From: Edaphobacter aggregans
GTDB taxonomy: Bacteria; Acidobacteriota; Terriglobia; Terriglobales; Acidobacteriaceae
Assembly: GCA_022736715.1 (NCBI GenBank)
Contig: DZDJ01000011.1
Coordinates: forward strand, 16,493 to 80,492
Direction: 5' to 3'
DNA: 64,000 nt
Part shown: positions 39,077 to 42,500 of the stretch, piece after piece
Numbering within the stretch: the stretch's first letter is position 1
Layout: each line of letters starts with the position of its first letter
Made by a program: the position numbers and the translations under genes
The notes under the pieces: model-generated
The model's input: the letters and a program-made list of their open reading frames with translations, nothing else
Database searches by the model: none
Told to the model about the DNA's origin: nothing

Positions 39077-40318
39077 CTAGTGTGTTGCTGCCAGCTCCTC
39101 TTTCCTGCCGTAGCGGGCTTCCACATACTCATCCAGAATGACCTTGAACTCGGCCACAATGTTGTCGCCGCGCAGGGTGGTCTTCAGCTTGCCATCTACG
39201 TAAACCGGGGCGACGGGATCTTCAAACGTGCCGGGTAGAGAGATGCCGATGTTGGCGTGCTTGCTTTCGCCGGGCCCGTTCACCACGCAGCCCATTACGG
39301 CGAGCTTCATCTCTTCTACGCCAGGGTAGCGGGTCTTCCACTCCGGCATGCTTTCGCGCAGATGGCCCTGCACCTGTTCGGCAAGTTGCTGGAAGTAGGT
39401 ACTGGTGGTGCGTCCGCAGCCGGGGCAGGCCGTTACCTGTGGCGTAAAGCTGCGGATGCTGAGGGACTGCAGAATCTGCTGGCCGCAGCGGACTTCCTCT
39501 GAGCGGTCGCCGCCGGGTGTGGGCGTCAGAGAAACGCGGATGGTGTCGCCAATGCCATTGAGCAGCAGCGGCGCCAGTCCGGCAGTGGAGGCCACAATGC
39601 CTTTCATGCCCATGCCGGCTTCCGTCAGGCCCAAGTGCAGTGCGTAGTCGCAGCGCGAGGCCAGCGAACTGTAGACATCGATCAGATCGCGCACGCCAGA
39701 GACCTTGGCGCTCAGGATAATCTGGTCGCGGCGCAGGCCGTAGCGCTCGGCGGCAGCGGCGTTGTCCAGCGCGCTGACCACCATGGCCTCCATCATCACG
39801 TCACGGGCATCCAGCGGCTGGGTCAGCCTGGAATTCTCATCCATCATGCGCGTCAGCAGGGCCTGATCCAGCGAACCCCAGTTGACGCCAATGCGTACGG
39901 GCTTCTGGTTTTCCACGGCGCACTCCACCATGGTGCGGAAGTTGTCGTCGTCCTTGCGGCCGATGGAGACATTGCCGGGATTGATGCGATATTTGGCCAG
40001 CGCCCTGGCACAGTCCGGATACTTCTTCAGCAGCAGATGGCCGTTGTAGTGAAAGTCGCCGATGATGGGCGTGGTCCAGCCCTTTTTGGCAATGCCTTCC
40101 ACGATGTAGGGAACGGCCCGGGCGGCGTCGTCATTGTTGACGGTGACGCGCACCATCTCGGAGCCGGCGCGGGCGAGCGCGGCAACCTGCTGGATGGTGC
40201 TTTCCACGTCCGCAGTGTCAGTGTTGGTCATCGACTGCACGATGACCGGACAGTCTGACCCCACGAGAACGTTGCCAATTTTGACAGAGACGGACTTGCG
40301 ACGGTTGATCTGCGGCAT
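39077..40318 (-). CDS. ispG: 4-hydroxy-3-methylbut-2-en-1-yl diphosphate synthase IspG
   Basis: Penultimate MEP-pathway enzyme (413 aa), a 4Fe-4S protein. The TIM-barrel part begins [20 protein letters not shown]. The cluster cysteines are in [11 protein letters not shown] and in [16 protein letters not shown], together with the Glu of that motif. It is the two-domain bacterial form. It lies beyond the hopanoid genes on the opposite flank from ispH, so both iron-sulfur enzymes of the MEP pathway border the block. ATG 40318. Confidence 0.95.
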
Positions 40319-40388
40319 AAATTTCTCTTTCCTCAGTTTACGGCATTTTGCAGCAGAACGGCTGCAACCGGCTCTCTATACTAAAGTT

Positions 40389-41033
40389 GTGCCTGTCAAA
40401 TCAGAAATCCCGGAATATCTTGCTCCGAAATATATCCCTTCTGCGCGGTTTACGCTGGCGCTGGAGTTTGCCACAGCGCTGCATGGCCGCCAGCAGCGGA
40501 AGCGCACCGGCGTGCCGTATGTGGCACATCTGCTGGATGTTTGCAGTATTGTGATGCAGGCCGACGGTGACGAGGAGCAGGCTATTGCCGCTCTGCTGCA
40601 CGATGCGCCGGAGGACCAGGGCGGACTGGAGACGCTGCACATGATCCGGCGGCTCTTCGGCAAACGTGTTTCGACCATTGTGAAGGACTGCACGGATTCC
40701 TACGACGGGGAAGAGGACGGACTGTGCTGGCGCGAGCGCAAGCAGGCGCATGTGACGCACTTCCGCGAGCACGGGCTGGCGGAAAGCTGCCTGGTGTATG
40801 CGGCGGACAAGCTGGCCAACAGCCGCTCCATGCTGCGCGATCTGCGACGCTATGGCTCCGATGTATGGCAGTTGTTCAGCGGTGGCCGCGAAGACACGCT
40901 GTGGTATCTGGAGTCGCTGAGCCAGACCTTTCGCGAGCGGGTACGCGAGGACGCCGGGCGGCTGGCTCCCGGCAATACGCTGGAAGTGCTGGATGAGTTG
41001 AACCGTGCGATTGCGGAGATGAAAACGTACTAA
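40389..41033 (+). CDS. HD-domain metal-dependent phosphohydrolase (RelA/SpoT hydrolase-like)
   Basis: A protein of about 214 aa with the metal-binding histidines and HD pair of (p)ppGpp hydrolase-like domains: RTGVPYVAHLLDV, then AALLHDAPEDQG, then the later ADKLANSRSMLRDL. It lacks a synthetase or regulatory domain, so it may be a small alarmone or nucleotide hydrolase; the substrate is not proven. The most likely start is GTG 40389. Longer in-frame starts would run into the divergent ispG. The tRNA gene follows after 51 bp. Confidence 0.8.
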   Translation: MPVKSEIPEYLAPKYIPSARFTLALEFATALHGRQQRKRTGVPYVAHLLDVCSIVMQADGDEEQAIAALLHDAPEDQGGLETLHMIRRLFGKRVSTIVKDCTDSYDGEEDGLCWRERKQAHVTHFREHGLAESCLVYAADKLANSRSMLRDLRRYGSDVWQLFSGGREDTLWYLESLSQTFRERVREDAGRLAPGNTLEVLDELNRAIAEMKTY

Positions 41034-41084: not shown

Positions 41085-41161
41085 GGCCCGGTAGCTCAGT
41101 TGCATAGAGCAGCGCACTCCTAACGCGAAGGTCGCAGGTTGGACTCCTGCCCGGGCCACCA
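41085..41161 (+). tRNA. tRNA-Arg (anticodon CCT) with unusual D- and T-loops
   Basis: A 77-nt cloverleaf with encoded CCA: acceptor GGCCCGG/CCGGGCC, D-stem GCTC/GAGC, anticodon loop CTCCTAA (anticodon 41119-41121) and T-stem GCAGG/CCTGC. Odd points: D-loop AGTTGCATA has C where G19 belongs (41103) and T-loop TTGGACT has G where C56 belongs (41141), a compensatory swap. The anticodon stem has mismatches at 27-43 (G-A) and 31-39 (A-C). Confidence 0.92.
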
Positions 41162-41330: not shown

Positions 41331-42500
41331 TTACGTGTTGCGCAGACGACGGCACGCCTCCTGCAGATCTGCGTCCTTTTTGGCAAAGCAGAAGCGGAGC
41401 AGATTTTCTCCATTGCCGCTGCCGAAGAAGGCCGTGCCCGCTACGGCCGCGATGCCAGTGTCCTTCAGCAATTGTCGCGCCTTGATTTTGGCGGTGGCGC
41501 CTGGAATGCGGGAGGAGTCTGCCAGCACGTAGTAGGCGCCCTGCGGAACTGAGGGTGTCAGTCCGGCTTCGGCGAGCGCAGTGCAGAGGGTGTTGCGCTT
41601 CTGCTCGTAGTCCTGCGACATCTCCGTGTAGAAATGGTCCGGAAGTGCCAGCAGGCCGGCTGCGGCTCCGTGTTGCAGCGGAGACGGAGCGCAGACGTAA
41701 GTGAGATCGTGAAAGTAGCCGATGGAGGGAATCCACCGTTCGCTGGCCGTGAGGTAGCCAAGACGCCAGCCGGTGACGCTGAAGGTTTTGGAAAATCCGG
41801 AGATGGTGATGGTGCGTTCCGCCATGCCGGGCAGGGTTGCTGGGCTGATATGCTGCGTGCCGTCGTAAAGGAAGTATTCGTAAATCTCGTCGGTAAAGAC
41901 GAAGAGATTGGCCCCGATGGCGATGTCGGCGAGGGACTCCAGCTCTTTGCGAAAAAAAACTTTGCCGCTTGGGTTGCCCGGCGAGTTCAGAATAATGGCC
42001 CTGGTACGTGATGTGAGGGCGGCCTCTACGGCACGCAGATCCAGTTGCCAGTCAGGAGCCTGCATAGGAACGAAAACGGGCTTTATGCGAAGCGAGAGCA
42101 GCGTGCTGGCATGGTAGCCGTAGCAGGGTTCAAAAATGATGACCTCATCCCCAGGATTGAGCAGCGCCAGGCAGGCGGCGTAGAGCGCTCCGGTGGCGCC
42201 GGAGGTGACCAGCACCTGGGTGTCCGGGTTGGCGGTAATGCCGTTGTAGTGAGCAAGTTTTTGCGCGATGGCCGTTCGCAGTGTGCTGATTCCGTCCAGC
42301 CGGGTATAGGTGTTGAAGCCATCGCGGATGGCGGCAAGAGCTGCTTCGACAACCGGCGCAGGCGGGTCAGTGTCGCATACGCCCTGCGCCATGTTGATAC
42401 CGTTGATGGCAGCACATTCTACCGTCATGGAACGGATTTCCGATTGAATGATGGCGGGGGAAATATCGCTCAACTGCAACGGCGTGGACGTAGTGGGCAT
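41331..42500 (-). CDS. PLP-dependent aminotransferase, class I/II
   Basis: Fold-type I aminotransferase of 389 aa. PLP contacts are TSGATGALYAAC, NSPGNPSGKV, FTDEIYEYF and the Schiff-base Lys in SGFSKTFSVTGWRLGY; the substrate-carboxylate Arg is in NLLRFCFAKK. It resembles the methionine/kynurenine-type group (YbdL-like) as well as aspartate aminotransferases, so the amino donor is not assigned. It lies alone on the minus strand downstream of lon, separated by a terminator. ATG 42500. Confidence 0.88.
   Translation of the reverse strand: MPTTSTPLQLSDISPAIIQSEIRSMTVECAAINGINMAQGVCDTDPPAPVVEAALAAIRDGFNTYTRLDGISTLRTAIAQKLAHYNGITANPDTQVLVTSGATGALYAACLALLNPGDEVIIFEPCYGYHASTLLSLRIKPVFVPMQAPDWQLDLRAVEAALTSRTRAIILNSPGNPSGKVFFRKELESLADIAIGANLFVFTDEIYEYFLYDGTQHISPATLPGMAERTITISGFSKTFSVTGWRLGYLTASERWIPSIGYFHDLTYVCAPSPLQHGAAAGLLALPDHFYTEMSQDYEQKRNTLCTALAEAGLTPSVPQGAYYVLADSSRIPGATAKIKARQLLKDTGIAAVAGTAFFGSGNGENLLRFCFAKKDADLQEACRRLRNT

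Follow-up and report, generated by a model that had tools for sequence, protein, structure and literature searches.

The tRNA-Arg(CCU) gene at positions 41085-41161 (+ strand) of the window, the whole 64,000-nucleotide stretch of Edaphobacter aggregans DNA that we analysed, very probably encodes a functional tRNA for AGG codons, in which the elbow pair G19-C56 has been replaced by C19-G56 through a compensatory change that left Watson-Crick pairing intact. The G19-C56 pair lies outermost in the tRNA elbow, forms a surface for stacking contacts with the ribosome and RNase P, and is usually treated as invariant. The gene is a real, conserved and recurrent exception to this near-universal feature and not a new kind of RNA. 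A literature search that covered subscription journals little turned up no report of C19-G56 occurring naturally in a bacterial tRNA-Arg, which is therefore weak evidence of absence.

ARAGORN predicted a tRNA-Arg(cct) on the + strand at exactly 41085-41161, and the Rfam tRNA covariance model scored the same interval at 56.5 bits (cut-off 29), bearing out the coordinates and identity proposed by a first-pass annotation made from the sequence alone. The 77-nt gene has the cloverleaf, class I length and encoded CCA (41159-41161) of an elongator tRNA-Arg(CCU); its acceptor, D and T stems are completely paired, and it also has U8, A14 and A73. In the D-loop (AGTTGCATA), G18 (41102) and A20 (41104) flank C19 (41103), a position that is normally G. 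In the T-loop (TTGGACT), T54 (41139), T55 (41140), G57 (41142) and A58 (41143) surround G56 (41141), which is normally C. Both partners of the G18-U55 contact (G18 and T55) are present, and positions 19 and 56 lack the G-C identity but are Watson-Crick complementary as C-G. The anticodon stem-loop (GCGCA CTCCTAA CGCGA, 41112-41128, with anticodon CCT at 41119-41121) contains two mismatches, G27.A43 (41112/41128) and A31.C39 (41116/41124). The arginine identity set comprises A20, C35, U36 and A or G at 73 (PMC9976931); the gene has A20, A73 and, in its CCU anticodon, C35 and U36.

The gene carries the only CCU anticodon among the 39 tRNA genes found in the source genome, a draft assembly. The other 38, all of them read and including tRNA-Arg(ACG), (CCG) and (UCU), have G19 and C56. 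Because AGG is in principle readable by tRNA-Arg(UCU), which this genome possesses, the tRNA-Arg(CCU) gene need not be essential. AGG codons are rare in the window: eight genes called with confidence contain 1.8 per thousand, and all long ORFs together about 5 per thousand. Upstream of the tRNA lies a gene for an HD-domain protein (40350-41033, + strand, 5' end provisional; Pfam HD_4), and downstream, on the opposite strand, a class I/II aminotransferase gene (41331-42500, - strand; Pfam Aminotran_1_2). A further upstream neighbour, ispG (39077-40318, - strand; Pfam GcpE), marks the orthologous locus by its synteny in named Terriglobales and in the canonical relative G044. A scan for sigma-70-type promoters and terminators gave no match near the tRNA, using a consensus that may not fit acidobacterial promoters.

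Comparison with other acidobacterial tRNA-Arg(CCU) genes confirmed that positions 19 and 56 had changed in concert, as first claimed: canonical relatives such as G044 have both G19 and C56, swapped relatives have both C19 and G56, and the swap is conserved within its clade. It is shared by Terriglobus, Edaphobacter and Granulicella genomes, often with all 77 nt identical. The identical gene is present in the isolates Granulicella mallensis, Edaphobacter lichenicola and E. modestus, and Terriglobus roseus DSM 18391 has close variants. Among genomes of the Acidobacteriaceae, G034 carries an identical 77-nt gene and G031 one that is 96% identical, both swapped, and G044 and G013 are canonical. 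A pattern with positions 19 and 56 left free detected tRNA-Arg(CCU) in 125 of 150 Acidobacteriaceae genomes, and every listed match had either G19-C56 or C19-G56, with no mismatch.

In a tree of arginyl-tRNA synthetase (ArgRS), 24 swapped genomes formed one clade (SH-aLRT 99) with the source genome branching first. At many Terriglobus-, Edaphobacter- and Granulicella-type loci the swapped tRNA adjoins ispG, as does the canonical G19-C56 tRNA of G044, so the exchange most likely took place in situ. The G044 and window tRNAs share anticodon CCU, A20, the cloverleaf and CCA as well as this locus; they differ in that G044 has G19-C56 and a paired 31-39, whereas the window tRNA has C19-G56 and A31.C39. 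One swapped genome with canonical genus-mates, G106, falls outside the 24-genome clade. Horizontal gain is not favoured in its case: its tRNA is also near ispG, and the canonical copy of G156 is at another locus.

Both anticodon-stem mismatches pointed out by the first-pass annotation are present, and only one of them proved unusual. Position 27-43 is mismatched or wobble-paired (G.A, G.U or G.G) in many canonical relatives and so is no part of the anomaly. By contrast, among 72 distinct tRNA-Arg(CCU) sequences, A31.C39 and its Terriglobus counterpart A31.G39 occur in swapped Acidobacteriaceae only, 31-39 being paired in all 43 canonical sequences and in the other swapped lineages. The 31-39 mismatch is a second conserved oddity of the swapped Acidobacteriaceae clade.

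To chart the swap beyond the family, we searched about 85,000 species, each represented by a single genome, for standard D- and T-arms that combine C19 with G56. At least 120 C19-G56 loci were found, and 113 of the 120 matches listed were tRNA-Arg (107 CCU, 3 CCG, 2 UCU and 1 ACG; the remaining 7 were other isotypes or ambiguous). Caulobacterales (Brevundimonas), Terriglobales and Blastocatellia supplied most of the matches listed. Metagenome-assembled genomes (MAGs) filed as Bordetella, Rhodanobacteraceae and Verrucomicrobia contributed a few, whose sequences match the main groups and which may be binning errors. Several non-arginine cases among the matches listed lie in tRNA arrays of phage-like appearance. 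About one third of the tRNAs covered by the pattern are arginine tRNAs (4 of 14 in the source genome), and collapsing the matches listed to order and isotype left roughly nine arginine against six other lineages. The arginine excess is strong by species and moderate by events, and counting species inflates the arginine share. The swap is no singular oddity, for it is found throughout an Acidobacteriaceae clade and in Brevundimonas, Blastocatellia and phages. The first-pass annotation had said that the swap proving common in other phyla would count against it; these further occurrences go part of the way, but the swap is still limited to particular lineages and mostly to tRNA-Arg.

Other Watson-Crick pairs also occur at 19-56. 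In 396 Acidobacteriota genomes, every G56 tRNA found was a tRNA-Arg(CCU) with C19 (36 genomes). A search of 297 Acidobacteriota genomes for A or T at position 56 returned seven tRNA-Arg(UCG) with A19-U56 (G379, G415, G451, G364, G350, G423 and G319, of family f30), three tRNA-Arg(CCU) with U19-A56 (G224, G295 and G364), one valine-like tRNA with A19-U56 and one mismatched tRNA-Lys (G19.A56). Genus g138 contains both G19-C56 and U19-A56 forms of tRNA-Arg(CCU). In the Caulobacteraceae, 10 were swapped, the remainder canonical and none mismatched. Across 385 Alphaproteobacteria, C19-G56 was found only in Brevundimonas-type tRNA-Arg(CCU), and A19-U56 in tRNA-Val(UAC) and tRNA-Ala(CGC), mostly in small genomes (among them G728, G734, G854 and G1024). 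At least three separate origins of the C-G form are probable, judging from distribution and sequence rather than a species tree, because canonical relatives stand beside it in Acidobacteriaceae, Caulobacteraceae and Blastocatellia and the acceptor and anticodon stems differ. The tRNA-Arg genes of Brevundimonas and Blastocatellia show the same or an equivalent exchange (C19-G56, also A-U and U-A) as the window tRNA, with unlike acceptor and anticodon stems and canonical relatives nearby that point to separate origins.

The 72 distinct tRNA-Arg(CCU) sequences comprise 43 with G-C, 26 with C-G and 3 with U-A at 19-56, and none with a mismatch. An apparent A19-C56 tRNA-Arg(CCG) in this comparison was an artefact of D-loop numbering. 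Watson-Crick pairing in 72 of 72 compares with about 35 expected when partners were permuted (maximum 47 in 2000 permutations), a contrast that gives no formal p-value because the sequences are related; the pattern searches needed a standard D-arm, which rarer mismatched forms could escape. This covariation suggests that cells preserve pairing at 19-56 and not particular letters. The natural occurrence of the other three Watson-Crick pairs in place of G19-C56 separates, in living cells, the need for a pair from the need for its letters. The arginine bias, in turn, makes elbow constraints testable in culturable bacteria (Terriglobus roseus, Edaphobacter and Brevundimonas).

We propose that G19-C56 became C19-G56 in the ancestor of the Terriglobus/Edaphobacter/Granulicella clade, where the Watson-Crick pair would act as a structural lock and stacking surface and its letters would matter less to the partners of the elbow. 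The exchange would be tolerated because D-loop/T-loop docking, the ribosome, RNase P and ArgRS need the 19-56 pair more than its letters. We infer that tRNA-Arg(CCU) is expressed and charged and that the swap leaves elbow geometry unaltered. In mitochondrial tRNA-Ser(UGA), aminoacylation is lost with the G19C mutation and recovered when the pair is made C19:G56 or A19:U56 (PMC10412605), in keeping with a structural lock. That C19:G56 variant is the same swap and regains aminoacylation relative to the mismatch; it is, however, engineered and mitochondrial, whereas the window tRNA is natural, bacterial and conserved in species. Like the window tRNA, tRNA-Pyl and type II mitochondrial tRNAs are without G19-C56, but in these the GG/T-psi-C contact is lost or the elbow rebuilt (PMC7609411), whereas the window tRNA keeps a 19-56 pair capable of Watson-Crick pairing.

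The exchange may also bear on modification of the T-loop. The consensus of the pseudouridine synthase TruB is 53-GUUYRANYC-61 (PMC7912444), and the window tRNA, reading 53-GUUGGACUC-61, has a purine at 56 and lies outside it. Because G56 breaks this consensus, psi55 may be absent from the window tRNA-Arg(CCU). Swapped genes will be misjudged by tRNA gene models and by predictions of modification that take C56 for granted.

Several other accounts of the swap were weighed against a compensated, functional pair. The two anticodon-stem mismatches, and a draft source assembly whose contamination is estimated at about 6%, might suggest a pseudogene or a sequencing or assembly error. We give this practically no credence and reject both: independent isolate genomes carry the same 77 nt, upholding the earlier argument against sequencing error, and the concerted change, intact stems and CCA, and conservation over several genera are not those of a gene with broken stems or of a sporadic, unconserved copy. 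Neutral compensatory drift in a redundant tRNA, in which a slightly harmful intermediate is fixed and then repaired, is a serious contender, if somewhat short of probable. Only about 2-5 in every thousand codons of the window are AGG, a UCU tRNA is available as backup, and no ArgRS feature generalises; on the other hand, the C34 tRNAs Lys CUU, Thr CGU and Ala CGC, which are no less redundant and fall within the same search pattern, showed no C-G swap in Acidobacteriota, so redundancy alone is insufficient to explain the arginine bias. For that bias ArgRS is the natural suspect, because A20, next to 19-56, is the main bacterial arginine determinant, described as unique among tRNA families (PMC9976931). 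Our most plausible guess is that ArgRS, which reads the neighbouring A20, relaxes the constraint on 19-56 or even promotes change there. The stronger version, that ArgRS drives the swap by docking its N-terminal domain on the D-loop and elbow to read A20, enzyme and pair having co-evolved, seems to us rather doubtful. It accords with the share of tRNA-Arg among swapped loci (113 of 120 matches listed in the species scan, 36 of 36 in Acidobacteriota, with A20 in all CCU cases) and with the Acidobacteriaceae ArgRS residue matched by eye to E. coli Y39, which is aromatic in all canonical genomes read and aliphatic in most swapped ones. Yet G106, G167 and G187 are swapped and aromatic at this position, Brevundimonas and all its canonical relatives have F there, the contrasts number only one or two independent cases (sign test p=1), and the one ArgRS of each cell must also charge G19-C56 tRNA-Arg. 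A Y39-type residue was accordingly rejected as a general cause, as was a second ArgRS dedicated to the swapped tRNA, a single argS being evident per genome. In E. coli ArgRS the A20 pocket includes F36 and Q40, with Y39 beside them (PMC8975779); the corresponding motif FGDYQ is mostly G(D/E)xA in Acidobacteriota ArgRS, with A at the Q40 position in those read (L222-L281). More speculatively, and in our view unlikely, ArgRS may be alone in reading the D-loop corner at A20, and this may have freed the tRNA-Arg class as a whole from G19-C56 identity, so that it explores each of the four Watson-Crick pairs across bacteria and phages; purine-56 forms might then evade TruB, giving a naturally hypomodified tRNA that serves as a regulated or protected AGG decoder.

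Mobile elements or phages could instead have brought or favoured the swap, by replacing the 3' half of the tRNA at each insertion or through phage tRNAs-Arg that are often C19-G56 and perhaps escape elbow-recognising enzymes. In a related genome, the 3' half of the gene, from position 27 to CCA (41112-41161, + strand, in the window), forms the core of an integration (att) site: G034 has a prophage of about 16 kb in its swapped tRNA-Arg(CCU) (L069 2372-18558; G034:C1 about 880371-896557), with a 51-nt direct repeat of the tRNA 3' half at its far end and genes for a portal, prohead protease, HK97-type capsid and tyrosine integrase. Three IMG/VR viral contigs (L429, L430 and L431) contain this 3' half but lack the 5' half, likely as att sites of further elements that use this gene, and 31 of 55 C19-G56 tRNA matches in viral contigs were arginine tRNAs. 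Against such an origin, position 19 lies outside the 3' half, the Acidobacteriaceae tRNA at the ispG locus tracks the ArgRS tree, and some CCU tRNAs in the 'viral' set clearly belong to the Brevundimonas host. At the window tRNA itself no element is inserted, and a second copy of the 3' half was not found in the source genome. We regard this account as improbable; a phage contribution to the origin of the swap is possible in general but is unsupported in this Acidobacteriaceae clade, whose tRNA agrees with the host tree.

Most C19-G56 tRNAs of viral contigs (L376-L428) are tRNA-Arg(UCU/CCU); tRNA-Thr(UGU) forms another group, with 8 of the 55 matches. A dense array of some 30 tRNA genes at about 3656-7271 of L102, from a Verrucomicrobia MAG, includes a C19-G56 tRNA-Ala(CGC) and is probably of phage or mobile-element origin.
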